Below, piece after piece: positions 1 to 13,806 of a DNA stretch of 64,000 nucleotides (position 1 is its first letter; every line of letters begins with the position of its first letter). The notes under the pieces were generated by a model. The model was not told the DNA's origin and made no database searches. It saw only the letters and a list, made by a program, of their open reading frames with translations. The stretch is taken from NCBI GenBank assembly GCA_028706295.1, contig JAQWBQ010000006.1, forward strand, positions 1-64,000, in the 5' to 3' direction. The position numbers and the translations under genes were made by a program. Origin of the DNA: Bacteroidales bacterium. Its GTDB lineage: Bacteria > Bacteroidota > Bacteroidia > Bacteroidales > FEN-979.

Positions 1-25
1 AAGTATCAACCAAAAAAATCACAAT

Positions 26-1039
26 ATGAAAAAACTGCTACTCTTTTTTGTGCTGTTAATGCCCGCGGGCTATCTCTATTCCCAGAACTGCTCCGACATC
101 TTTATTTCGGAGTATGTTGAAGGATGGAATAATAATAAATCGTTGGAACTCTACAATCCGACTAATACTGCAATCACTCTTGATAACTTATACCGGTTAA
201 TACGGTGGTCTAACGGGGCAACTAATTCAGATCAGGATATGCAATATGTCTTACCATTAGTCGGCGCCATTGATCCTTTTAAAGTGATGGTTATCATTCA
301 GGATACGGTACCTGAAGGTCAGGATACCATGGTGTGGCCCGCTTTGAGACAAAAAGCTACCTGGCTTGCCCCATTTGCGTACAATACAACTCCGCCTACT
401 CAGGGAGGAAATGTAGTATTCTGGAATGGCGATGATGCCATTTCTGTTCAAAAGAAGGTTAACGGAACCTGGACAGATATTGATATCTTCGGAGAAATAG
501 GTGTTAAACCCAAGGCCGGCGGTACAGGTAGTTTAGGAGCCTGGACGGATACAAAACCCTATTGGACGGGAGTGGGAAAGTATCTGACATTAAATAAAAC
601 GCTGGTCCGCAAACCTTCCGTTAAACATGGAGTGGATCGTCAAACCATGATTCATTACGGCGACAGCACAACCGGTGGTGATGCAAATAGTTTTAATGCT
701 ATGCTTGAATACGACTCTTTGCCGGCGAACACCTTCGATAGCCTTGGTCAACACCGGTGTGACTGCAAAACTTCACAATCAATACCGGAACATCAGAATT
801 CAAGTTCTATTCTCATTCAACCGAACCCGGTTGTTAATAATCATTTTATTGTTTTATCAGCAATTCCTTTGAACTCCGTTGAGGTTCTGTCAGTTGTCGG
901 GCAATCCGTTGTAAATTTTAAACTCTCTTCTCAAAGAGAGGTAAAAGTTCAACTCAACAACCTGCCCCGGGGAATTTATTTTGTAAAAACGATTAATACC
1001 GAGAACCAAATTGCAATCAAAAAAATCATATTGCAATAA
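26..1039 (+). CDS. Lamin-tail-like surface protein with T9SS sorting domain
   Basis: A 337-residue exported protein. Residues 1-20 form a signal peptide ending YSQ. The mature part opens with DIFISEYVEG followed by SLELYNPT, the usual opening of bacterial lamin-tail (LTD) domains, which are often found on secreted nucleases and cell-surface proteins. Residues from about 263 (IQPNPVVNN) to the end (GIYFVK, then IAIKKIILQ) match a type A T9SS C-terminal sorting domain, so it should be exported across the outer membrane and anchored or released. No catalytic domain is visible in between. It lies upstream of a TonB-dependent receptor and a secreted PLD-fold protein on the same strand, but a hairpin follows it, so it may be a separate transcript. 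The LTD call is by motif only. Confidence 0.8.
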   Translation: MKKLLLFFVLLMPAGYLYSQNCSDIFISEYVEGWNNNKSLELYNPTNTAITLDNLYRLIRWSNGATNSDQDMQYVLPLVGAIDPFKVMVIIQDTVPEGQDTMVWPALRQKATWLAPFAYNTTPPTQGGNVVFWNGDDAISVQKKVNGTWTDIDIFGEIGVKPKAGGTGSLGAWTDTKPYWTGVGKYLTLNKTLVRKPSVKHGVDRQTMIHYGDSTTGGDANSFNAMLEYDSLPANTFDSLGQHRCDCKTSQSIPEHQNSSSILIQPNPVVNNHFIVLSAIPLNSVEVLSVVGQSVVNFKLSSQREVKVQLNNLPRGIYFVKTINTENQIAIKKIILQ

Positions 1040-1065
1040 TAAATTCCTTTTTAATCTTTAACTAT

Positions 1066-1098
1066 CATAGGGGCGGCTGATTATAGTATGCCCCTATG
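1066..1098. terminator. Hairpin between the T9SS protein and the TonB receptor
   Basis: A perfect 9-bp inverted repeat, CATAGGGGC (1066-1074) and GCCCCTATG (1090-1098), lies 27 bases after the stop of the first gene. There is no strong T-run after it, so it may be a weak terminator or an mRNA-stability hairpin. It covers the upstream ATG at 1088, which argues for the downstream ATG at 1127 as the real start of the receptor gene. Confidence 0.45.
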
Positions 1099-1126
1099 TT
1101 GTGTCAAAAAACAAATAATTCCATCA

Positions 1127-4021
1127 ATGACAAATAGATTTACTGTCGTAATACTGGCCATGTTATTTCCGGTATTCATTTATGCGCAGAAAACCATGAT
1201 CAGAGGCGTCGTCACCGATGCCAATACAGGGGAAACACTTATCGGAGCCACAGTTCTGTACGGTGAGAACAAAGGGATGGTAACCGATATGGATGGCCGA
1301 TACTATCTGAAAGTTGAACCGGGAACCTATCGTATTAAAGTTTCATACGTTGGTTATATTCCACAGGAAGTTGACATAAATGTAGGGAAGAGTGAGATCA
1401 CATATGATTTCGCATTAAAAACCCCAACTTTAAGCGAAGTCGAAGTTATCGGGGATATTGCTAAAACACGGGAAACACCCATTGCTTTTTCAACGGTTCA
1501 ACCCATTAAACTTCAGGAAGAACTTGCAGCAAGGGACATACCCTTAATCCTGAATAAAACACCTGGTGTATATGCTACCCAGCAAGGAGGCGGGGACGGA
1601 GATGCCCGTATCAACATCAGGGGATTTAGTCAGCGAAATCTTGCTGTAATGATAGATGGAATTCCAGTAAATGACATGGAAAACGGATGGGTCTACTGGT
1701 CGAACTGGTTTGGGCTTGATGCGGTGACCCGGAGCATTCAGGTGCAACGGGGACTCGGAGCCTCGAAACTGGCATTGCCATCAGTCGGCGGAACCATGAA
1801 CATTATCACCAAAGGAATCGATGCAAAGTTCGGAGCAATGCTCAAGCAGGATGTAGGCAGCGACGGCTATCTTCGCACCTCATTGGGAGTGACCACAGGC
1901 CAACTGAAATATGGTTGGGGAATTACCATTGCGGCCTCATACAAACAGGGGAACGGCTGGGTTGATAACACCTGGACCAAAGGGTGGTTCGGTTACATCA
2001 GGATTGATAAAAAATTAGGCAAACATACCCTGACTTTTTCGGCCATGGGCGCCCCGCAACAACATGCACAGCGGTCTTACCAAAAATCAATCGCAACGTT
2101 TGATAAAAACTATGCGGGAAAACTGGGAATAGATACCTCGAAAACAGGCCCCTCCTGGGGAATCCGATATAATCCAAATTGGGGCTATCTCAACCGCTGG
2201 ACAGGAGCCTCCGATAATCCAATTTATCAGGAAAATCCTGAAAATCTCTCATCTTCAATGAATTTTTATTTTAAGCCGCAGCTCAGCTTAAGAGATTTCT
2301 GGCGGATCAGCGATAAATTTTATCTTTCCAATATCATATATGCTTCTTTCGGACAGGGAGGAGGAACTGGCACTGCAAGAACGGATAAATTTGGCACCCC
2401 TGGAAGCTCAACATTTTTTACTGACCCCAGCAATGGACAAGTCAACTTTCAGGTAGAATATGATAATAACCGGAATCGTTTCGGACTGAATCCGGATAAT
2501 ATCGCTCTTGCCATTTTACGAAGCAGTAATAACAATCATTACTGGTACGGATTATTATCAACCTTTAATTGGGAAATCAACGAGAACCTGACTTTTTCAG
2601 GCGGAATTGATTTAAGAACATACAAAGGAGAGCATTACCGTACCGTCTATGATTTACTGGGCGGAAATTATTTTCTTGATAATTCAAATAAAAACAGGTA
2701 TAAAAAGCAGCATCTTGACGAGGGTGATAAAATCATTTATAACAATGATGCACTTGTTCGATGGGGTGGACTTTTCGGCCAGATAGAATTTAAAAAGGAA
2801 AAATGGTCTGCATTTTTAAACCTGACAGCAGCTTTGACAGGGTATCAGCGTATCGACTATTTTCTGAAAAAGGATCTTGTTATTGATGGAACTACCTATT
2901 CGGAAGCCATTGGGTACGGAGATGTCTTTTTTTCCAACGGATCGCAAAACCTCACGTATCACTCGGATTCCATCGGAGAGTCCTATTATACATCACATGA
3001 TACAACCTATTTGATTAGTCATTCAGGAGCCGATACATCGTATATAACTAATGCAACTCCTTATGACATAAACTCTTCAGAAGCACGATTCACACGAACA
3101 AAATGGAAATGGTTGCCCGGGTTCACAGTTAAAGGTGGTGCAAATTATAATTTGAACGAAAGAAACAATCTCTATTTAAACCTGGGTTATTTGTCTAAAG
3201 CCCCGCGTTTTGCTAATGTTTTTGATAATCAGAATAAAATGTTTCGCGAAATTAAAAATGAGATCATTGAAGCTTTTGAAATCGGATACCATTATAATTC
3301 CAAGACTATTGCTATCAATGTTAATGGATATCTGACTTATTGGCAAAACCGGCCTTTGGACCAGGTGTCAAAGGTTACAATCGATGAGGAACAATATTCT
3401 TATAATATTAATGGGATTGATGCTTTTCATAAAGGAATTGAAATTGAATTCGGATGGAAGCCGATTCCCTCGCTCCAATGGGATCAGGTATTTGCATTTG
3501 GGGATTGGCGTTGGGTTTCTGGCGATTCTGTCTACATTTATGATGATAACAATAAGTTACTTGCAACAAGATATTTCGATGCGCGTGGCGTCCATGTTGG
3601 AGATGCCGCCCAAATTCAGTTGATGGAAAGTATCAGATGGGAGATCATAAAGTATTTATATGTTTCGGGTAGTTTCACCCTGTTTGCAAAAAATTATTCC
3701 GAATTTGACCCCATTTCTCTCGGTCCAGATCCGGATGATCCATCGTATCAATATTTGGATGAAAATGGTAACCCTCGTGATTCGTGGAAATTGCCAGTTT
3801 ATTTCCTCGTTGATTTGAATGCCGGTTATCGGTTTACATTTAAAAACTTTAAACTTGATCTTCGTGCAACTGTGCTGAATCTACTCGACCGAAAATATAT
3901 TTCTGATGCCCAGAATAACGATTCCTATTCTACCTCAACCAGAAATTTCGATGCAGCATCTGCCGGGGTTTTCTTCGGCACCGGAAGAACCTTTAACGCG
4001 TCGATTGCGCTCAGTTTTTAA
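1127..4021 (+). CDS. TonB-dependent outer-membrane receptor
   Basis: An outer-membrane receptor of about 964 residues from the chosen ATG. An upstream ATG at 1088 is in frame, but the signal peptide (MTNRFTVVILAMLFPVFIYAQ) begins at 1127 and the hairpin at 1066-1098 overlaps the earlier start. After the signal comes a carboxypeptidase-regulatory-like domain (MIRGVVTDANTGETLIGATV), then the plug (DARINIRGFSQRNLAVMIDGIPVNDMENG), then a beta-barrel ending in a hydrophobic strand with terminal F (NASIALSF). This is the SusC/FecA-like architecture of Bacteroidota. No SusD partner is adjacent, so a glycan-uptake role is not supported. Its neighbours, a lamin-tail protein and a secreted PLD-fold protein, hint at uptake linked to nucleic acids or phosphate, but this is inference. 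Confidence 0.92.
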   Translation: MTNRFTVVILAMLFPVFIYAQKTMIRGVVTDANTGETLIGATVLYGENKGMVTDMDGRYYLKVEPGTYRIKVSYVGYIPQEVDINVGKSEITYDFALKTPTLSEVEVIGDIAKTRETPIAFSTVQPIKLQEELAARDIPLILNKTPGVYATQQGGGDGDARINIRGFSQRNLAVMIDGIPVNDMENGWVYWSNWFGLDAVTRSIQVQRGLGASKLALPSVGGTMNIITKGIDAKFGAMLKQDVGSDGYLRTSLGVTTGQLKYGWGITIAASYKQGNGWVDNTWTKGWFGYIRIDKKLGKHTLTFSAMGAPQQHAQRSYQKSIATFDKNYAGKLGIDTSKTGPSWGIRYNPNWGYLNRWTGASDNPIYQENPENLSSSMNFYFKPQLSLRDFWRISDKFYLSNIIYASFGQGGGTGTARTDKFGTPGSSTFFTDPSNGQVNFQVEYDNNRNRFGLNPDNIALAILRSSNNNHYWYGLLSTFNWEINENLTFSGGIDLRTYKGEHYRTVYDLLGGNYFLDNSNKNRYKKQHLDEGDKIIYNNDALVRWGGLFGQIEFKKEKWSAFLNLTAALTGYQRIDYFLKKDLVIDGTTYSEAIGYGDVFFSNGSQNLTYHSDSIGESYYTSHDTTYLISHSGADTSYITNATPYDINSSEARFTRTKWKWLPGFTVKGGANYNLNERNNLYLNLGYLSKAPRFANVFDNQNKMFREIKNEIIEAFEIGYHYNSKTIAINVNGYLTYWQNRPLDQVSKVTIDEEQYSYNINGIDAFHKGIEIEFGWKPIPSLQWDQVFAFGDWRWVSGDSVYIYDDNNKLLATRYFDARGVHVGDAAQIQLMESIRWEIIKYLYVSGSFTLFAKNYSEFDPISLGPDPDDPSYQYLDENGNPRDSWKLPVYFLVDLNAGYRFTFKNFKLDLRATVLNLLDRKYISDAQNNDSYSTSTRNFDAASAGVFFGTGRTFNASIALSF

Positions 4022-4073
4022 GTAAAACAGTATTAATAACAAAGTACCCTTTAAATCAGAAAATATCCGACTC

Positions 4074-6518
4074 ATGAAAAAAATTCTCTTTTTGTTTTTT
4101 GTCCTGATTCTCACCGGGAATCACCTTTATTCGCAAATGACCATTGCCGAAGCGAGAGCCTTACCCGAAGGTTCTACCGTGACCATCCGCGGCGTGGTGA
4201 CCAACGGTTCCGAGCTTGGAATCATCCGCTATTTCCAGGATGCCACTGCCGGGATTGCGGCCTATGGGTCTAAAGTGAATGGCATCGAACGCGGCGACTC
4301 CGTCGTGGTGGTGGGTGTCACGAAAAACTACAACTACCTTCTCGAAATTGACCCGGTCACCTCCATAACGGCAATTGCGCCCCGCCCGTTACCGACGCCC
4401 AAAACCATTACGCCCGGACAGATGAGTGAACAATATGAGGGACAACTCGTTACTATGGTCGACGTTACCTTTTCCAATGCCGGCGGAGTCTTTGCAGGGA
4501 ATACCAACTATAATGTAACCGGAAGCGGCCAGAGCTGCCAGGTGCGTGTGAATACCAACTCCAATCTTGTCGGCCAGATCATCCCGGCCAGCCCGGTGAC
4601 TCTGATCGGACTCTGCTCCCAGTTTTCCTACACAAGTCCCACGGGTGGATACCAGCTGCTGCTGCGCGATCGGAACGATGTTATCAGCGAAAGCGCCATT
4701 GCCTTTACCACACCACTTAAAATCAGCAATATCACTGCCTCATGGTTCACCTTATCATGGAATACCAACATCGACGGTACAACGGAGCTTTTTTACGGGA
4801 GAACTCCCTCACTCGAATCAGGCCACCTGAGTGTAATAGGAACGGGTTCGGCCCACACGATAAACCTTTCAGGACTTAATCCCTCCGATCTGATCTATGT
4901 TCAGGCTTTCTCCGTCGCCGGCCAGGATACAGGTTGGTCGGGACTGAAGACTTTCATTACCCAGTCGGTGTCGTCGGGAAGTATCAAAGCCTATTTTACC
5001 CGGCCGGTCGATACTACGGTTGCCACCGGCGAAAAAGCCATCCGGATTTACCGTGCCGTCGATGATACCTGTATCGCTTACATTAACCGTGCAAAACAGT
5101 CTATCGACGTGGCAATCTATAATTTTAATGTTGAAGGACTTTCCAGTATTGCCGGCGCTTTAAATGCTGCCTACAACCGGGGGATTGTGGTTAGGATCGT
5201 GACCGACGAGGGGACTAATAATTCAGCAATTCGTGAACTTGCCGAGGGTATCGGAGTAATTGAGCGACCTGTAACCGTGGGGATCATGCACGACAAATTT
5301 ATGGTCATCGATGCCAATTCTACCAATCCGAACGATCCCATCGTATGGACCGGATCCTGCAACTGGACGGATCAGAATGTCAATACCGATGCCAACAATG
5401 TTCTTTTCATCCAGGATGCCAGTCTTGCCAAGGTTTACACCCTTGAATTCAACGAAATGTTTGGATCGACCACTGCCAATCCCGATATTGCAAATGCAAA
5501 GTTCGGTCCTTCCAAAACCGATAATACCCCGCACGACCTGGTTATCGGAGGGAAAAATGTTGAAGTCTATTTTAGTCCCAGTGACGGCGTTAATCAACAA
5601 ATTGTCAACCATATCGCAACTGCGAACAGCGATCTCGAAATCGGCACCATGCTCATCACCCGGAAAGTCATCAGCGATGCCATTATTGCCCGTAAGAACG
5701 CGGGAGTTAATGCGAAAATGATTATCAGCAACCGTTCAACTTCCGATGCCACGGTGGTTACAGATCTGGGAAATGCACTTGGAACCAGTTTCAAGGAGTA
5801 TCATGAACAGGGACTGCTGCACAGTAAAGCCATGATCGTTGACCAGTCGGATCCGTTGTCAGATCCCTTCGTCTGGACGGGATCGCACAACTGGAGCGAT
5901 GCCGCCAATGTGAGCAACGATGAAAATTCCATCGTCATCTACGACGCCGGATTGTGTAACCTGTTTTACCAGGAGTTCAAGGAGCGTTTCGATCTGGCCA
6001 TCCCCATCAGCGATCATCCGGTGCTTGACCTGGGTCCCGACCAGACCGTCTTTGGCGGTGACACCGTGACCCTGGATGCCGGGCAGTTCTCCACCTATGT
6101 TTGGTCAACCGGCGCACTTACACAAATAATCACGGTGGATTCGGCAGGTGTCGGTTACGGCACCAAAAAAATATATTGCCGCGTCACCGATGCTTATGGT
6201 GTTCAATCCGATACCGTCAGGATTACCTTTAAACCACACGATGGAATTTTAGAACAACCGGGTACGTTATCGGCGCTGTCGCTTTACCCGAATCCGGCCG
6301 ACGGACCATTTACCATCGCCTATAACTCGAAGGGTTCGCAAACTGCGCAAATTGAAATCATCGGGGTAGACGGCAGGTCAATCTGGAGCGCCAATGTAAC
6401 GTCGCAACCCGGGAAAAATCTTGTTACGGTCACGCCAAAACCGCTTGCCGATGGTATTTATTTCGTGCGGTTGCGGTGCGATGACAGTGTTCTGGGAGCC
6501 CGACTGGTCATAAGATAA
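4074..6518 (+). CDS. Secreted OB-fold / FN3 / tandem phospholipase-D-fold protein, T9SS cargo
   Basis: An 814-residue secreted protein. After a signal peptide (to about residue 21) comes an OB-fold-like region (VTIRGVVTNG, YFQDATAGIAAYG, RGDSVVVVGV) of the YhcR type found in extracellular nucleases, then an FN3-like domain (about 210-295), then two phospholipase-D folds. Both HKD motifs are intact: HDKFMVID and HSKAMIVD, each followed by a WTGS.NW segment. A PKD-like stretch (LGPDQTVFGGDTVTLDAG) and a T9SS type A sorting domain (LSLYPNPADGPF to the C-terminus) complete it. Two HKD motifs in one chain form a single PLD active site, so nuclease or phosphodiesterase activity on an extracellular substrate is likely; nuclease is favoured by the OB fold. 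It starts 52 bases after the receptor gene. Confidence 0.85.
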   Translation: MKKILFLFFVLILTGNHLYSQMTIAEARALPEGSTVTIRGVVTNGSELGIIRYFQDATAGIAAYGSKVNGIERGDSVVVVGVTKNYNYLLEIDPVTSITAIAPRPLPTPKTITPGQMSEQYEGQLVTMVDVTFSNAGGVFAGNTNYNVTGSGQSCQVRVNTNSNLVGQIIPASPVTLIGLCSQFSYTSPTGGYQLLLRDRNDVISESAIAFTTPLKISNITASWFTLSWNTNIDGTTELFYGRTPSLESGHLSVIGTGSAHTINLSGLNPSDLIYVQAFSVAGQDTGWSGLKTFITQSVSSGSIKAYFTRPVDTTVATGEKAIRIYRAVDDTCIAYINRAKQSIDVAIYNFNVEGLSSIAGALNAAYNRGIVVRIVTDEGTNNSAIRELAEGIGVIERPVTVGIMHDKFMVIDANSTNPNDPIVWTGSCNWTDQNVNTDANNVLFIQDASLAKVYTLEFNEMFGSTTANPDIANAKFGPSKTDNTPHDLVIGGKNVEVYFSPSDGVNQQIVNHIATANSDLEIGTMLITRKVISDAIIARKNAGVNAKMIISNRSTSDATVVTDLGNALGTSFKEYHEQGLLHSKAMIVDQSDPLSDPFVWTGSHNWSDAANVSNDENSIVIYDAGLCNLFYQEFKERFDLAIPISDHPVLDLGPDQTVFGGDTVTLDAGQFSTYVWSTGALTQIITVDSAGVGYGTKKIYCRVTDAYGVQSDTVRITFKPHDGILEQPGTLSALSLYPNPADGPFTIAYNSKGSQTAQIEIIGVDGRSIWSANVTSQPGKNLVTVTPKPLADGIYFVRLRCDDSVLGARLVIR

Positions 6519-6594
6519 AACACGAAAGCGCCGGTAATACAATACCCTGAGGCAATTTTCGTTTATTGAATAGAAACATTTAAAATAATTGATT

Positions 6595-7344
6595 GTGTCT
6601 GATTGCCTGGTAATCATTCCAACCTTCAACGAAAAAGATAATATCGAGCGAATCATCCGTAAGGTATTTTCCTTATCCCGGAGCATGGATGTGCTGATTG
6701 TCGAGGATAATTCGCCCGACGGAACGGCGGCCATCGTGAAATCGCTGATGGCTGAATTTCCCGACCGGCTTTTTATTGAGGAAAGAAAAGGGAAGTTAGG
6801 ACTTGGCACCGCTTACATTCATGGATTCCGTTGGGCTTTGGAACGGCACTACGATTACATTTTTGAAATGGATGCCGATTTTTCTCATAACCCCGATGAC
6901 CTGCTCCGTTTGTACGATGCCGCCAGGAATCAGGGGGGCGATCTGGTAATCGGGTCCCGTTATATTACCGGGGTCAACGTGGTTAACTGGCCGATGGGAA
7001 GGGTTCTGATGTCTTATTTTGCCTCTACCTACGTCAGGTTTGTTACCCGGATGCATGTCATGGATACAACCGCCGGATTTAAATGTTATACGCGAAAAGT
7101 TCTTGAAACAATTGATCTGGATAAAGTCCGTTTCACCGGTTATGCATTTCAGATCGAGATGAAATACACCGCCTGGAAGCTGGGTTTCCGTATTCTGGAA
7201 GTGCCCATCATCTTTACCGATCGCACACAGGGAGAATCGAAAATGAGCAAAGGGATATTTAAAGAAGCAGTATTGGGTGTGATCAGCCTCAGGTGGAGAA
7301 GTCTCATGGGGAAGATAAAACCCCGGAATGTAAGGTCATCCTGA
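6595..7344 (+). CDS. Polyprenol monophosphomannose synthase-like glycosyltransferase (GT2)
   Basis: A family 2 glycosyltransferase of about 249 residues that transfers a sugar from a nucleotide donor to polyprenyl phosphate, at the inner face of the cytoplasmic membrane. Motifs: VIIPTFNEKDNIERII at the N-terminus, the DXD-type MDADFSHNPDD, and DTTAGFKCY, all typical of dolichol-phosphate-mannose synthase homologues. It lacks the C-terminal membrane helices of longer members. The start is unusual: there is no ATG before the conserved N-terminus, so GTG at 6595 (or TTG at 6589) must be used. Dihydroorotase follows 26 bases downstream and may be co-transcribed. Confidence 0.88.
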   Translation: MSDCLVIIPTFNEKDNIERIIRKVFSLSRSMDVLIVEDNSPDGTAAIVKSLMAEFPDRLFIEERKGKLGLGTAYIHGFRWALERHYDYIFEMDADFSHNPDDLLRLYDAARNQGGDLVIGSRYITGVNVVNWPMGRVLMSYFASTYVRFVTRMHVMDTTAGFKCYTRKVLETIDLDKVRFTGYAFQIEMKYTAWKLGFRILEVPIIFTDRTQGESKMSKGIFKEAVLGVISLRWRSLMGKIKPRNVRSS

Positions 7345-7370
7345 ATATTTGCCCTAAACATTGTTATCGC

Positions 7371-8726
7371 ATGCCGGAGGGTTATTTTATACATAACGCG
7401 CTGATTGTTAATGAAGGAAAACGGTTTCCAGGATCTGTTCTGATTCAGGATGGACGGTTTCAGGAGATCTTTGCAGGATTGCCGCCCACGGATTTCGTCC
7501 TGCCGCCCGGCGTTATATCTGTTGATGCACACAACCGCTATCTGTTTCCGGGGGTGATCGATGCCCATGTGCATTTTCGGGAGCCCGGACTGACCCATAA
7601 GGCCGACATCAATACCGAAAGCCGCGCCGCTGTTGCAGGAGGAGTCACCTCTTATTTTGAGATGCCGAATACCGTTCCGAATGCCACCACCCTCGATATC
7701 CTGGAAGAAAAATTCGAGATTGCCCGAAACAAGTCACTGGCCAATTTCTCATTTTTCTTGGGCGCAACCAACGATAATATCGCGGAAATAGAAAAGGCCG
7801 ACCCGGCCCGGATCTGCGGTTTAAAGGTATTTATGGGCGCCTCAACGGGAAATATGCTGGTTGATGATGTGCAGGCCCTCGAACAGATATTTTCAAGGTC
7901 GCCCCTGATCATCGCCGTGCACACCGAAGAAGAATCCATCATCAGGCATAATCTGGAAAATTACCTTGGAAAGTTTGGAGCGCAGATTCCGGTTTCGGCA
8001 CATCCCCTGATCCGCAGCGAAGAGGCCTGCTTTACTTCATCGGGAAAGGCAGTAGAACTTGCCCGTAAATTTAATGCCCGGCTTCATCTGACACATGTTT
8101 CAACAGCACGGGAGCTGGATTTACTCCGTAACGACATACCTTTGAAGGATAAGAAGATCACCGGAGAGGTTACTGTTCATCATTTGTGGTTCGACGACCG
8201 GGATTATTCCGACCTCGGCTCCCGGATCAAATGGAACCCGGCTATTAAAACCGCTCACGACCGGGAAGCGCTGTTACAGGGAGTGTTGGACGACCGGCTG
8301 GATCTGATCGCCACCGATCATGCCCCGCACCTTCACCATGAGAAAGAACATCCATATACATCTTGTCCTTCGGGGGGGCCAATGATCCAGCATGCCCTGG
8401 TGGCCATGCTCGGATTTCAACAACTGGGAAAGATTTCCGTTGAGAAGATCATTGAAAAAATGTGCCACGCACCTGCTGTACGTTACCGTATACAAAATCG
8501 CGGATTCATACGACAGGGCTACTTTGCCGATTGTATTTTGGTCGACCCGGATGATCCCTGGACGGTTTCGAAGGATAATATTCTGTACAAATGCGGGTGG
8601 TCGCCCATGGAGGGAGTTACCTTCAAATCGCGGGTTACCCACACATGGGTAAATGGAGGACTGGTATTTAACGAAGGTAAATTCAATGAAAACATGAAAG
8701 GTTTTCGGTTGACCTTCGATTATTGA
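7371..8726 (+). CDS. pyrC: Dihydroorotase
   Basis: Catalyses the reversible cyclisation of N-carbamoyl-aspartate to dihydroorotate, the third step of pyrimidine synthesis. Metal-site motifs are complete: DAHVHFREPGLTHK, the carboxylated lysine in GLKVFMGAST, histidines in AVHTEEE and LTHVST, and the catalytic aspartate in ATDHAPH. The length (about 451 residues) fits the class I amidohydrolase type. The frame is open from 7293, overlapping the glycosyltransferase, but ATG 7371 avoids the overlap and begins just before the first beta-strand (IHNALIVNEGKRF). The name pyrC is used in the functional sense. Confidence 0.93.
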   Translation: MPEGYFIHNALIVNEGKRFPGSVLIQDGRFQEIFAGLPPTDFVLPPGVISVDAHNRYLFPGVIDAHVHFREPGLTHKADINTESRAAVAGGVTSYFEMPNTVPNATTLDILEEKFEIARNKSLANFSFFLGATNDNIAEIEKADPARICGLKVFMGASTGNMLVDDVQALEQIFSRSPLIIAVHTEEESIIRHNLENYLGKFGAQIPVSAHPLIRSEEACFTSSGKAVELARKFNARLHLTHVSTARELDLLRNDIPLKDKKITGEVTVHHLWFDDRDYSDLGSRIKWNPAIKTAHDREALLQGVLDDRLDLIATDHAPHLHHEKEHPYTSCPSGGPMIQHALVAMLGFQQLGKISVEKIIEKMCHAPAVRYRIQNRGFIRQGYFADCILVDPDDPWTVSKDNILYKCGWSPMEGVTFKSRVTHTWVNGGLVFNEGKFNENMKGFRLTFDY

Positions 8727-8815
8727 TATTCTGAATCGGAACAGGCTTAAGAATAAAGAAGGGCTGTTTTTTTTAGTAAAACTGCATTTAAAACTATAAC
8801 AATTAACGATTTAAA

Positions 8816-9259
8816 ATGAAACAAAGACTACTTTTTTTTGTCGCATTAGCATTAGTTCTGGCATCCTGCCGGTTCGAACATAAAGTGGTGGAGGAGACAT
8901 ACGCTGACGGTTCTCCCAAAAGGGTATGCATATACAAAGGGAGGGGAGAAGGTCGTGAACTGATCAAGGAGACAACCTATTATCCCAACAAACAGCCACA
9001 AATGGAGGGTACCTATGTCAATGAAAAGCGAAACGGAAAATGGACCTATTGGTACGAAAACGGAAAAGTTTGGAGCGAAGGGATGTTTTTGAATGGCAAA
9101 TCGGATGGGAAACGAGTGACCTATTTTGAGAACGGTAAAATCAGATATGAAGGATTTTATAAAGAAGACAACCGGGTTGGTAAATGGCGCTTTTTTGACG
9201 ATAAAGGTCGTTTATTGCAGGAAGTCGATTACTCAGCCCCACCAAAAGAAACCCGGTAA
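8816..9259 (+). CDS. Lipoprotein with MORN-variant repeats (YwqK-like)
   Basis: A 147-residue lipoprotein with a clear lipobox (VLASC, Cys at about residue 18). The rest is a run of repeats of the form G.Y.N.KRNGKWTYWYENGK and G.FLNGKSDGKRVTYFENGKI, the MORN-repeat variant found in proteins often labelled 'YwqK family antitoxin'. No toxin gene is nearby, so the toxin-antitoxin label should not be taken literally. It is likely attached to the outer or inner membrane and may bind protein or lipid. It is convergent with the EEP-family gene on the opposite strand. Confidence 0.82.
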   Translation: MKQRLLFFVALALVLASCRFEHKVVEETYADGSPKRVCIYKGRGEGRELIKETTYYPNKQPQMEGTYVNEKRNGKWTYWYENGKVWSEGMFLNGKSDGKRVTYFENGKIRYEGFYKEDNRVGKWRFFDDKGRLLQEVDYSAPPKETR

Positions 9260-9287
9260 ACCTGATGCTTGTCCACGAGTCCGCTGG

Positions 9288-10298
9288 TTACTCCACGACT
9301 GTGTAGACCGGCAAATGGTCGCTGAATCCGCCAAAGTATTCCTTCGATCCTGCAGTCCGGTTTGGGATCATCTGACCTGATTTATTTTTATAAAGCATCC
9401 ACTCCTTTTTGAAAATATAAGCATACGGCGGATGGATCACGGGATTGTGGCGTTTACCGGTTAGAAGATTCCCCGATACGATAATCTGGTCAAAGAGGTC
9501 CCAGTCTTTGTAAAACAAGGTTCCTTCGCCCTTCACGTAGTTCTCATAAGTAAGGTTATACAAGGAGGCCGGTTTGATCCGCTTTTCAATCTTCTGAGCT
9601 TTCAGGACTTCGGAGATGCTTTTGTTTACGGGCTCGTCATTGAAATCTCCAATCAGGATGATCCGTGCCTGAGGGTCGGCATGTTGTACGGAATCGATAT
9701 ATTGTTTCAAAAAGGTGGCATTCTCCACTCGTTTCGGCTCCGTCTTTTCAGCCGATCCTTCGCGCGACTTCCAATGGTTGATGAAAATATGGAATGTGTT
9801 GCGCTGCTGATCCAGAACTTTGATATAAAGCACCGAACGGGTCTGGAACGAGGCCGCCGACGGAAGAGATTTGTAACCCGCCATACTTAATTTTCCGGGG
9901 CGGTACAGCGCTGCCACATCGATTCCCCTCGGATCGTTCCCCTCCACGAGAATGGTTTGGTACCCGCCCCGCTGAAGTTCCTGAACCCTGATCAGATCTT
10001 CCAGAACTGTTTTGTTTTCAATTTCAGCAAGTCCGATAAATGCCGGCAGATCGGTGCTGTCGATGGCCGACAGCACTCGGGCGACCTGGTGAAGCTTGCG
10101 GTTGTATCTTTCCGATGTCCAGGCAACTTTGGATCCAGGTAAAAAATCCTCATCATTCCGTTTGGGATCATCGATGGTGTCGAAAATATTCTCCGTATTA
10201 TAAAAAACAATTTTAAAGGGTTTTACATCTTGTTTCTGAGAGTAACCAATAAGACTGCATACGATCAGAAAGATCAGAAATAAGGGGAATGACTTCAT
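9288..10298 (-). CDS. Endonuclease/exonuclease/phosphatase family protein, exported
   Basis: A 336-residue protein with a signal peptide (MKSFPLFLIFLIVCSLIGYSQ) and the EEP fold shared by DNase I, exonuclease III and sphingomyelinases. Key motifs in order: FYNTENIFDT (Asn), GLAEIEN (metal Glu), INHWKSR (catalytic His region), LIGDFNDEP (Asp and Asn), SDHLPVY (final Asp-His pair). The full set is present, so it should be an active metal-dependent phosphodiesterase or nuclease acting in the periplasm or outside the cell. The substrate (DNA, inositol phosphate or lipid headgroup) cannot be told from sequence. Together with the PLD-fold protein at 4.1 kb it gives this region two exported phosphodiesterases. 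Confidence 0.88.
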   Translation of the reverse strand: MKSFPLFLIFLIVCSLIGYSQKQDVKPFKIVFYNTENIFDTIDDPKRNDEDFLPGSKVAWTSERYNRKLHQVARVLSAIDSTDLPAFIGLAEIENKTVLEDLIRVQELQRGGYQTILVEGNDPRGIDVAALYRPGKLSMAGYKSLPSAASFQTRSVLYIKVLDQQRNTFHIFINHWKSREGSAEKTEPKRVENATFLKQYIDSVQHADPQARIILIGDFNDEPVNKSISEVLKAQKIEKRIKPASLYNLTYENYVKGEGTLFYKDWDLFDQIIVSGNLLTGKRHNPVIHPPYAYIFKKEWMLYKNKSGQMIPNRTAGSKEYFGGFSDHLPVYTVVE

Positions 10299-10406
10299 CG
10301 GAGATTATTTAATTTATCAGATTATAAAAAGGGACACCATTGCTGATGTCCCTGTGCTTTATCCGTCATTTTATTTGTCGTCCATAACCGTAGGGCTGAT
10401 CACGGA

Positions 10407-11258
10407 TCAGTCAACCACGATGACCAGGTACTTGGAATTTGCCCAGAAGGCCTTATAATCAAGGATCTGCAACGCCTGAATGACTTTTTTATCACCTGAG
10501 AATTTGTAGGAACTCGAAGGATGGTTCGAAAGGATCTTTGCTTTTTTACTCAGGATGGAGATCTCGGTCACTTTGCGAACGTCAATTTTAGTAAAGAGGT
10601 CCTTGTTAAAATCGGCCAGCAGTTCACCGCTCTTGATGATTCCGCTCTTCTTGAGCTCCTTGTTGGTGCCGATAACGTAATACGCGGTATTCAACGCTTC
10701 ATCCTGGGCAGCAATGGTTTGGTTCTGGCTGCTGATCTGGGACCCTTGTGACCGCACCGTGCGCGACAAAGTATCGATCTTCAGATTGGCTGTTTCAAAT
10801 GCACTGTTCAGCTTGGCAAGTTTACCGCGGAGATCCTCTATTTCGGAAGCTTTTGCAGCAATGTCCTTCTGTAGCCTGTCAACCATTTTGTTGAGCTCAT
10901 CAACTTTCATGTTGGCATTTTTCAGTTTCCTGGTGAGGGCCGACAGCGTCTCTTTATTTTTCTGCATCAAACCGTAGATCGTCTGGATGTCATTCTTGAT
11001 CTGTTCTTTTGCCGACAATTTTAATTCACCCCCGCGATCTGTGGTCAGGTTGATAATGTTCTCTTTTTGTTTGATGGTATCCAGCGTTCCCTGGATCTCG
11101 TTAATGGACCGGATGAATTCATTGATTGCTTCATCCTTTTGCATGGTTTGACTCAGGAGGCTGTCATTTTTAGCCTGCATTTCCTGGGCTTGTTTCTTGG
11201 CTTCACGGCCACAGGCAATGAAAACCGGGATCAATAAAAGTACAAGATACTTTTTCAT
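10407..11258 (-). CDS. Coiled-coil lipoprotein of unknown function
   Basis: A 283-residue lipoprotein: MKKYLVLLLIPVFIAC gives a lipobox with Cys at residue 16. Residues about 22-190 are heptad-rich and predict long coiled coils (KKQAQEMQAKNDSLLSQ, then several LXXLXXK-type runs and QGSQISSQNQTIAAQ). The C-terminal ~90 residues (AYYVIGTNKELKKSGII to LQILDYKAFWANSKYLVIVV) look globular. I recall similar proteins in other Bacteroidota annotated only as hypothetical. The element CAAAATTA at 11281-11288 reads TAATTTTG on the coding strand, a fair -7 box for this gene. Confidence 0.75.
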   Translation of the reverse strand: MKKYLVLLLIPVFIACGREAKKQAQEMQAKNDSLLSQTMQKDEAINEFIRSINEIQGTLDTIKQKENIINLTTDRGGELKLSAKEQIKNDIQTIYGLMQKNKETLSALTRKLKNANMKVDELNKMVDRLQKDIAAKASEIEDLRGKLAKLNSAFETANLKIDTLSRTVRSQGSQISSQNQTIAAQDEALNTAYYVIGTNKELKKSGIIKSGELLADFNKDLFTKIDVRKVTEISILSKKAKILSNHPSSSYKFSGDKKVIQALQILDYKAFWANSKYLVIVVD

Positions 11259-11352
11259 TTTTAAGGTTTTAAAGTTGATGCAAAATTAATCAGAAAATTA
11301 TAATATATAACTCTTCTTGATCGGGAACCCTTAACTTTACGGAAAAAATATC

Positions 11353-12531
11353 GTGCAAAAATCCAAGAATATTTTATTAAAACACGGAAAAGATGCGGCT
11401 GTCCGACGATTTCATCCCTGGATCTTTTCGGGAGCGATCGATCGTATCGAAGGCGCGCCGGGGGTCGGAGATATTGTCAGAATTATAGATTCGGGCAGGA
11501 ACTTTCTTGCATTAGGCCATTACCTGAAAGGTGACATTGCGGTAAAAATCTTTTCCTTTGAAGAGGTTACAGTCGACGATACATACTGGTATGAACGACT
11601 GAGACAATGTTACCGGCGAAGATGCAGCCTTGGAATTGCTGAACAGGAGCGCCAACCGGCTTACAGGTTGGTTTTTTCGGAAGGCGACGGACTGCCGGGT
11701 CTGGTAATCGATTATTACAACGGGGTTGCGGTAATTCAGGCTTCGTCGAAAGGTATGCAGAGTCTGTTGCCGGTTTTTACCGAAGGATTGAAATCCATCT
11801 ACGGTTCGAATTTGCTGGCGGTTTATGATAAAAGTGATGATAAAGAGGGTGGGATTCCTCCCGACCGGAGGTTTCTTTACGGGAAGAGCGAAAGGATTGC
11901 AATTCTGGAAAACGGGAACCAGTTCTTTGTTGACTTTATCAATGGACAAAAAACAGGTTTTTATCTGGATCAGCGCCTGAACCGACTTTTTGCCCATTAC
12001 TATGCAAAAGGACGGGTGGTGCTGAATGCCTTTTGTTATTCCGGGGCATTTTCGGTCTATGCCCTTCGGGGAGGAGCGAAATTGGTACATTCAGTGGATA
12101 TTTCGAAAAAAGCACTGGATTGGACTTCAGAACATGTGGTTCTGAATGGTTTTGATCCCTCCATTCATGAGACGTTTGCTGCCGATGTAAAAGATTACCT
12201 GGTCTCGACCAGGAACACGTACGACCTGATCATCCTCGATCCGCCGGCCTTTGCCAAGACCCATCGTGTTTCAAACAATGCGTTGCATGCCTACATTCAT
12301 ATCAATGCTGCCGCGATGAACAGGATCAATAGGGGAGGCCTACTCTTTACCTTTTCTTGTTCACAGGCCATCTCGAGGGAGATGTTCCGTGCGGCCATCC
12401 AATCGGCCGCAATCGAAACGGGCCGCAGGGTTACAGTTTTGCATCAGCTTGTTCAGGGGCCCGATCATCCGGTGAATGCCTGCCACCCCGAAGGCGATTA
12501 CCTTAAGGGCTTGATTTTGATGGTCGAATAA
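11353..12531 (+). CDS. rlmI: Class I rRNA (cytosine-5) methyltransferase, RlmI family
   Basis: A 392-residue SAM-dependent methyltransferase. The N-terminus is a PUA-like RNA-binding domain (KHGKDAAVRRFHPWIFSGAIDRIEG). The methyltransferase part has the linker QKTGFYLDQRLNR, motif I VLNAFCYSGAFSVYALRGGA, the acidic VHSVDIS, and the catalytic LDPPAFAK and FTFSCSQ typical of the RlmI/YccW family that methylates 23S rRNA. The start is GTG at 11353; no earlier ATG is in frame. TAACTTTA ends about 13 bases upstream, so the transcript leader would be very short. Confidence 0.88.
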   Translation: MQKSKNILLKHGKDAAVRRFHPWIFSGAIDRIEGAPGVGDIVRIIDSGRNFLALGHYLKGDIAVKIFSFEEVTVDDTYWYERLRQCYRRRCSLGIAEQERQPAYRLVFSEGDGLPGLVIDYYNGVAVIQASSKGMQSLLPVFTEGLKSIYGSNLLAVYDKSDDKEGGIPPDRRFLYGKSERIAILENGNQFFVDFINGQKTGFYLDQRLNRLFAHYYAKGRVVLNAFCYSGAFSVYALRGGAKLVHSVDISKKALDWTSEHVVLNGFDPSIHETFAADVKDYLVSTRNTYDLIILDPPAFAKTHRVSNNALHAYIHINAAAMNRINRGGLLFTFSCSQAISREMFRAAIQSAAIETGRRVTVLHQLVQGPDHPVNACHPEGDYLKGLILMVE

Positions 12532-12591
12532 TGAGTGCCATCTTGTCTGAGATCTATGCTAATCCGCTAAATTTACCTTCCCTACCAAATC

Positions 12592-13806
12592 ATGATGATG
12601 GAATTACCAAAACCCGGTGAATTTGCCAATTGCTGGTCGCTCGACTCCAATGTTGTTTTTCTGAACCATGGATCCTTCGGAGCTTGTCCTGCTGTTATCC
12701 AGCAACGACAGGACGCCTACCGCCGGCAACTTGAATCACAACCCGTCAGATTTCTCATCCGGGAGATGGAACAGCAATTCAATACGACACGTGAAAAAAT
12801 CGCTGCTTTTGTCAATGCACCCCTGAAGGATCTGGTCTTTGTTCAGAATGCCACTACCGCGGTGAATACCGTGTTCCGTTCGCTGAAATTCGACCGCGGC
12901 GATGAGATCGTCTATACAAACCATATTTACGCGGCGTGCAAACGGGTTCTCGATTATGTTGCAGAGACAACAGGAGCGGTACTCGTGGAGGCTTCCTTCG
13001 GATTTCCGATCGATCATCCCGGGAAAATCACCGATGCAATCCTCGCGAAAATTTCACCGAAAACGAAAATAGTTCTGATCGACCATATTTCATCGGCTAC
13101 TGCCCTGATCCATCCCGTAGAAGAAATTGTCGGTGCACTCAACGAACGGGGGATCGATACCCTGATCGACGGAGCACACGCCCTTGGGAGCATACCACTT
13201 GATCTGCAGAAAATAAATGCAACCTATTATACCGCTAACTGTCATAAATGGTTGTGTGCACCAAAGAGTTCGGCGATTTTGTATGTGCGATCTGATAAAC
13301 AGGATGGAATCGTACCTGCGGTTATCAGTCACCCCGGTCATAGAGCCTCCTCTTTTACCGAGCGGTTTTACTGGCCCGGAACCTACGATCCCTCTGCAGT
13401 TTTGGCGGTGTCAGATACCCTTGATTTCTTTTCTGAACTGCTTCCCGGAGGTTTTCCCGAAGCCATGCAAAAAAATCATGAACTGTGCCTTGCAGCGCGT
13501 AACCTGCTTTGTGAGCGGCTGAATATCCCGAAACCGTGTCCCGACGACATGATCGCCTCTATGGCAACCATCATATTGCCTGTCCCGTCACCCGCTGTTG
13601 AAGTCGATTATAAAAGTATCGATCCGTTGCAGGAAACGATCTTCCGTAAATACCATCTTGAGGTCCCGGTCTGGAACTGGTCATCCCAGGGCAGACGTTT
13701 AACCCGGATTTCGGCACAACGCTATAATTCACCTGACCAGTACCGTTACCTGGCCGATGTTTTACAGAAAATTATCGAAGAAGAACAAACGGTCTTAAAA
13801 AAATAA
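12592..13806 (+). CDS. Class V aminotransferase-fold PLP enzyme (isopenicillin-N-epimerase-like)
   Basis: A 404-residue PLP enzyme. Recognisable parts are FLNHGSFGACP at the N-terminus, NATTAVNTVFRSL, the cofactor aspartate in LIDGAHALGSIPLDL, and the Schiff-base lysine in TANCHKWLCAPKSSAILYV. This combination is typical of the CefD-like/cysteine-desulfurase-like group of family V. The true substrate is unknown: most proteins labelled isopenicillin N epimerase outside actinomycetes have not been tested, and there is no beta-lactam cluster here. It starts 60 bases after the rRNA methyltransferase gene. Confidence 0.85.
   Translation: MMMELPKPGEFANCWSLDSNVVFLNHGSFGACPAVIQQRQDAYRRQLESQPVRFLIREMEQQFNTTREKIAAFVNAPLKDLVFVQNATTAVNTVFRSLKFDRGDEIVYTNHIYAACKRVLDYVAETTGAVLVEASFGFPIDHPGKITDAILAKISPKTKIVLIDHISSATALIHPVEEIVGALNERGIDTLIDGAHALGSIPLDLQKINATYYTANCHKWLCAPKSSAILYVRSDKQDGIVPAVISHPGHRASSFTERFYWPGTYDPSAVLAVSDTLDFFSELLPGGFPEAMQKNHELCLAARNLLCERLNIPKPCPDDMIASMATIILPVPSPAVEVDYKSIDPLQETIFRKYHLEVPVWNWSSQGRRLTRISAQRYNSPDQYRYLADVLQKIIEEEQTVLKK

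Follow-up and report, generated by a model that had tools for sequence, protein, structure and literature searches.

A likely TonB-linked locus for the use of extracellular DNA in a Bacteroidales genome

The window studied here, positions 1 to 64,000 of contig JAQWBQ010000006.1 from a Bacteroidales bacterium (assembly GCA_028706295.1, lineage FEN-979), opens with three genes in a row that encode a lamin-tail-domain (LTD) protein, a TonB-dependent receptor (TBDR) and a protein of the phospholipase D (PLD) superfamily. The question raised by this trio is what substrate a receptor of this kind would handle together with two proteins that carry the tail of the type IX secretion system (T9SS). We propose that it is probably a surface locus for the utilisation of extracellular DNA. 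The genes are three intact open reading frames (ORFs) on the same strand, separated by 48 and 52 bases, with the following features:

26..1039, + strand: LTD gene; signal peptide, lamin-tail-like domain at aa 20-141 (Pfam) or 20-178 (fold), T9SS type A tail at aa 266-335
1088..4021, + strand: TBDR; CarboxypepD_reg-like domain, plug and barrel; probable true start at 1127
4074..6518, + strand: PLD-superfamily protein, T9SS-exported, proposed DNase (profile matches, alignment A5, predicted model)
Domains of the PLD-superfamily protein: behind a signal peptide comes DUF5689 (aa 53-203); two PLD repeats follow at aa ca. 300-650, with an Ig/FN3-like segment before them and an Ig-like segment after them; the T9SS tail spans aa 737-805
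5289..5312, + strand: first HKD motif, HxKxxxxD, aa 406-413
5820..5843, + strand: second HKD motif, HxKxxxxD, aa 583-590

ORFs and domain profiles agree with the original prediction, which had described an LTD-type T9SS protein, a TBDR without SusD and a T9SS protein with two intact HKD motifs lying in a row.

Conservation of the trio

Each of the three proteins served as a query against 149 genomes of the order, and the genome_contigs collection was scanned with the TBDR alignment A1 (17 rows). Of the 576 loci confirmed in the latter, the best 80 were taken, so that the far edge of the family lies outside the sample. Loci were collected by TBDR similarity alone; the neighbouring genes were then called and scored with profiles built here. 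After four duplicates, recognised as the same contigs by their length and position, had been dropped once each (L098=L141, L099=L187, L100=L184 and L104=L165), 99 distinct loci were retained, including the window and a second copy from the same assembly. An LTD gene lies directly upstream of the TBDR in 91 of the 94 loci with a gene in view there, one of them as a fused ORF. In locus L105 the apparent lack of an LTD upstream proved to be an ORF-calling artefact, since the LTD is present at the search coordinates; adding it raises the count to 92/94. On the other side, a nuclease-type gene directly follows the TBDR in 84 of 86 loci (56 PLD, 28 Endonuclease I) at a median gap of 31.5 bases; in L190, the second downstream exception beside L105, the sequence is cut after DUF5689. 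Receptor and surface hydrolase belong to one same-strand cluster.

The same picture emerged from the genomes of the order: an LTD orthologue was found in 19 of 149, in all 19 beside this TBDR (Fisher p 4e-22, ignoring phylogeny and with thresholds chosen after the scores were seen). The 80 best loci are labelled mostly as Bacteroidales and Flavobacteriales, with Chitinophaga, Saprospirales and Chryseobacterium metagenome-assembled genomes also represented; one Chlorobiota-labelled locus falls inside the Bacteroidota rows of the TBDR tree. A lack of conservation of the neighbours had been named beforehand as refuting the idea, but they are kept in nearly all loci with a gene in view. The association of the three genes is far beyond chance.

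As controls we used nine loci of more distant TBDR relatives (L124 and L128-L135, with L130 and L132 cut by contig ends). None of the nine has an LTD upstream or a nuclease directly downstream, and these relatives were rejected as members; an Endonuclease I gene lies two genes away in L129, and a PLD gene two genes away in L124. The controls bear on the possibility that the enzyme is a nuclease acting at the surface in defence, in competition or against biofilms, and is only co-regulated with a TBDR that imports something else (iron, cobalamin or a peptide). T9SS surface nucleases with a family of their own do exist (NF052644, by name), and TBDR ligands are not predictable from sequence, but the absence of both partners from the places next to the control receptors speaks against such an arrangement. 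Since the order of the genes is fixed and the gaps are short, we argue for one pathway and consider separate functions quite improbable.

The three proteins and the exchange of the nuclease slot

In a profile search the first gene gave a Por_Secre_tail match of 35.4 bits and a lamin-tail match (PF00932) of 31.4 bits, the latter below the Pfam gathering cut-off of 34.3; the domain is nevertheless present at E<=0.001 in 59 of 59 aligned family members. Its LTD part also matches the ExeM profile NF033680 (E=4.4e-10, 38.3 bits, far below the cut-off of 1300). In the predicted model (m150d08380e73, pLDDT 88.7), the C-terminal domain resembles the T9SS tails of RemA, mirolase, the RemZ complex and NucA (Z 10-11), and the N-terminal region resembles the tails of human lamin B1 and A/C (3jt0 and 3gef, Z 8.0, 101 and 112 residues). 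For residues 1-245 the longest match among solved structures was BT_1938, a DUF4876 protein of B. thetaiotaomicron (4q1z, Z 9.4, 190 residues). These Z values are middling. By its family-level match and the Ig-like lamin-tail fold of its model, the product of the first gene is a lamin-tail-like protein, and the modelled likeness suggests that DUF4876 proteins may be related surface partners. Signal peptides, read from the sequence, a C-terminal sorting domain and the presence of SprA of the T9SS in the genome are those expected of T9SS cargo.

The second gene encodes CarbopepD_reg_2, Plug and TonB barrel domains. Translation probably starts at the ATG at 1127, where a signal peptide begins as read from the sequence. 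No SusD was detected among the ten proteins scanned at window positions 26-13803, and the receptor's neighbours across the 99 loci are an LTD gene and a nuclease-type gene, unlike the SusC/SusD pair of a SusCD-type utilisation locus. In L181 the LTD and TBDR genes form a single frame of 1318 aa that retains the signal peptide of the TBDR inside; this fused frame is probably due to a lost stop or a frameshift.

The third gene gave matches to DUF5689 (48.4 bits), PLDc_2 (130.8 bits over two stretches) and Por_Secre_tail (38.7 bits). Profiles, alignment and predicted model all place two HxKxxxxD motifs on a PLD fold, as in members of the PLD superfamily. The residues H406-K408-D413 and H583-K585-D590 are invariant across the 42 rows of alignment A5, and both motifs are found in 56 of 59 PLD slots, the remaining three being short ORFs at contig ends. 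The DUF5689 part matches the ExeM/NucH profile NF033681 weakly (E=0.0078, 15.1 bits against a cut-off of 300); this match and the strand order of the model make an OB fold plausible. DUF5689 is limited in the window genome to the two trio copies and one large surface protein. The window PLD protein shares 67% identity in DUF5689 with a 2131-aa T9SS protein that has Fib_succ_major domains and whose DUF5689 lies at G000:C42:12010-12576 (L136); this points to recent domain shuffling.

What does the PLD protein cleave? By sequence, Zucchini, Salmonella Nuc and NucT are the closest solved relatives of its PLD repeats, and a phospholipase ranks lower. The predicted model (m9a33c18d2675, pLDDT 87.9) superimposes on the PLD3/PLD4 exonucleases with Z 34.7 over 332 residues at 2.7 A in VIA-align, which ranks them first; the phospholipase 7e0m, Foldseek's top match, is a near tie (VIA-align Z 33.5). 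Because the two folds are so close, nucleic acid and phospholipid cannot be told apart as substrates from the model by itself, and it is the context that decides.

This context is the exchange of the enzyme itself. In the 42 PLD sequences examined (the window and 41 genome_contigs loci), PLDc_2 was found in 42, a T9SS tail in 40 and DUF5689 in 25. When the first seven non-PLD downstream genes were scanned, all encoded Endonuclease_1 with a T9SS tail, some with DUF5689 or Big_5, and the full set of 28 non-PLD slots gave Endonuclease_1 in 28, a T9SS tail in 27, DUF5689 in 10 and an LTD in 2. Across the TBDR tree the slot changes between the two types at least eight times (FastTree, 84 labelled rows, some forks open). 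Since the TBDR keeps its LTD partner while the enzyme type swaps between two unrelated nuclease folds, the simplest explanation is that the PLD protein does the same job as Endonuclease I. We regard this exchange as the best evidence, at the level of sequence comparison, that the PLD protein would cut nucleic acid.

The exchange also bears on the scavenging of phospholipids or other phosphodiesters, in which the PLD protein would be a phospholipase and the TBDR would import head groups. Such a role draws on the near-tied phospholipase D structures and on a superfamily that covers both activities, but Endonuclease I replaces PLD in the slot and nucleases lead the sequence matches. If the two enzymes had different substrates, the locus would need at least eight substrate switches. 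We thus hold phospholipid scavenging to be highly improbable, and the preference for a nucleic-acid substrate voiced in the original prediction is supported by both the PLD to Endonuclease I exchange and the sequence ranking.

As a separate observation, the nuclease slot of L205 and L207 is filled by an Endonuclease I protein of 1030 aa that carries both DUF5689 and an additional lamin-tail domain, so that LTD and nuclease are fused.

Neighbouring genes and the second copy

The genes around the trio recur as well. In many loci Mfd lies upstream and a GT2-dihydroorotase pair downstream, which indicates that these loci share one chromosomal site. In Flavobacteriales loci, GT2 and dihydroorotase often lie on the other side and strand, and the trio is still kept. 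The window and its contig begin at the same base, and for this reason Mfd, the gene preceding the LTD gene, sits on another contig. The only motif found upstream of the loci was TAnnTTTG (58 of 84 upstream regions against 7.1 in shuffles), which we take to be the general Bacteroidota -7 promoter box.

An exported phosphodiesterase of the EEP family had also been counted in the cluster:

9288..10298, - strand: exported EEP-family protein (Exo_endo_phos_3), possible accessory, weakly linked

The gene is real (PF19580, 316 bits) and also matches positions 235-445 of NF033681 (47.4 bits, below the cut-off of 300), but its membership is weakly supported. Three genes of other pathways separate it from the trio. 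Among the 99 loci, EEP was found in 23 of the 38 in which dihydroorotase is followed by 3 kb or more of sequence, in 2 of the 8 where less lies beyond that gene, and in 1 of 53 without dihydroorotase (0 of 20 at a locus length of at least 15 kb). Being rare where dihydroorotase is missing, it mostly follows the GT2-dihydroorotase-MORN block, and we rejected it as a full member of the trio; it is a possible accessory. As exceptions, EEP lies directly upstream of the TBDR in L115, where dihydroorotase is also present, and next to the LTD gene in L107. The window genome further contains a second EEP-family gene and one 5'-nucleotidase-type match, whose part in the pathway would be hypothetical. 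At 10407-11258 on the minus strand lies a coiled-coil protein that scores 244.9 bits against a cut-off of 90 with the NCBIfam model 'Cbp1 family collagen-binding glycoprotein adhesin'.

The second copy of the trio in the assembly (G000:C112, L097; see also G000:C126, L137) is mosaic when compared with window positions 1-5303. Over its first 127 bases it agrees exactly with both the window start and the end of the Mfd-bearing contig; its LTD and most of its barrel are about 53-66% identical to those of the window, part of its PLD gene is 97-98% identical, and its TBDR clusters with the copies of other species on the tree. The far end of C112 has no exact match within the window. This copy may be a tandem duplicate, a strain allele or a misbinned contig.

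A proposed route for DNA fragments and its known counterparts

The gene content would fit the following scheme. The LTD protein and the nuclease would be exported by the type IX system and remain on or near the cell, where the LTD and the DUF5689 domain of the nuclease would bind DNA. Cutting would fall to the PLD protein or, in relatives, to Endonuclease I, and the TBDR would import the oligonucleotides in a TonB-driven manner, with the LTD in the position that SusD has in sugar systems. Phosphate and nucleosides would finally be released by phosphatases and nucleases in the periplasm. Taken as a whole, such a TonB-dependent importer of DNA fragments would be a counterpart of the polysaccharide utilisation locus (PUL), with an LTD capturing the substrate, an interchangeable PLD/Endonuclease I slot, a wide distribution in Bacteroidota and, for TBDR and DUF5689, a partial kinship with a DNA channel of transformation; on this full version our belief and our doubt weigh equally.

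Several observations weigh against DNA utilisation. At E<=0.001, DUF5689 is reached in only 25/42 PLD and 10/28 Endonuclease I proteins; the LTD is missing upstream in L118 and L115, as is the nuclease downstream in L105; genes for the periplasmic steps are absent from the locus; and a phospholipase heads the Foldseek matches of the PLD model.

The main rival is DNA uptake for natural transformation, with the TBDR as the outer-membrane DNA channel, LTD and DUF5689 as binding parts and a nuclease that only trims or nicks. Two neighbours, a TBDR-like protein bearing a carboxypeptidase-regulatory domain and a DUF5689 protein, are reported as essential for transformation in Riemerella (PMC8459023), and tonB mutants are described as transforming poorly (PMC8383284). 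The restricted occurrence of DUF5689 described above means that no separate pair of the Riemerella type was seen in the window genome, which also favours this rival. However, the product of the conserved third gene is a secreted nuclease-type protein, either PLD or Endonuclease I, a better fit to digestion, whereas in Riemerella the partner contains DUF5017, and the sections of that paper cited here name no nuclease domain for it (PMC8459023). Moreover, L115 (2257-12764) carries a pair of a TBDR and a 424-aa DUF5689 protein separate from its EEP gene, clade TBDR and PLD gene; this pair is like the Riemerella one in make-up, and its presence suggests two systems. We therefore judge transformation unlikely to be the main role of the trio.

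Bacteroidota are known to degrade extracellular DNA (PMC8289736), and their extracellular nucleases and DNA feeding have already been published (PMC8289736, PMC11495043). The SusCD-type PULs and the PusCD phosphate loci of Flavobacterium (PMC8115612), as presented there, share with the trio the combination, for nutrient capture, of a TonB-dependent transporter, a partner at the surface and a hydrolase that is secreted or periplasmic; in contrast to them, the window locus has an LTD in place of SusD, and T9SS proteins of nuclease type, with two unrelated folds, take the place of the hydrolases. EndA1 and EndA2 of F. johnsoniae (Fjoh_4721 and Fjoh_4723; fn3, LTD and Endonuclease_1) are extracellular, combine the LTD and Endonuclease I domains met in the loci of relatives, and rise at phosphate depletion, with first table-row values of 4.66 and 4.13 (PMC8115612). 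Unlike the trio, each is a single protein, listed as orphan, with no TBDR named in the part of the paper drawn on, and the window has PLD instead of Endonuclease I. The published expression of these related proteins makes phosphate a plausible prize, by analogy (PMC8115612).

The R. anatipestifer pair RA0C_RS04915/RA0C_RS04920, likened here by description, resembles the trio in having an outer-membrane protein with a carboxypeptidase-regulatory domain beside a DUF5689 surface protein tied to DNA; it differs in its DUF5017 and its transformation role, with no nuclease or LTD gene named in the cited sections (PMC8459023). In the window PLD protein, DUF5689 was found and DUF5017 was not listed at E<=0.1. 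The LTD and DUF5689 parts of the window match the N-terminal part of the ExeM and ExeM/NucH profiles (NF033680, NF033681), but those are one polypeptide, whereas the window has separate genes, predicted PLD catalysis, T9SS export and a TBDR. Candidatus Izemoplasmatales are not known to have an outer membrane. Their DNA-degradation loci likewise bring together lamin-tail, nucleic-acid-binding and nuclease domains with DNA as food, in a different phylum and with no TBDR named in the portion of the source used (PMC8289736).

In the open-licence literature searched, we found neither a description of the LTD-TBDR-nuclease trio nor a named route bringing DNA pieces through the Bacteroidota outer membrane for food. 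Judged from its sequence, this is likely a TonB-linked utilisation locus with DNA instead of sugar as substrate, and thus a concrete candidate for the import of DNA fragments as food. If true, this would explain the role of some 'orphan' TBDRs and T9SS lamin-tail proteins, and the link between TBDR and DUF5689 is also relevant to DNA uptake during transformation in Bacteroidota.

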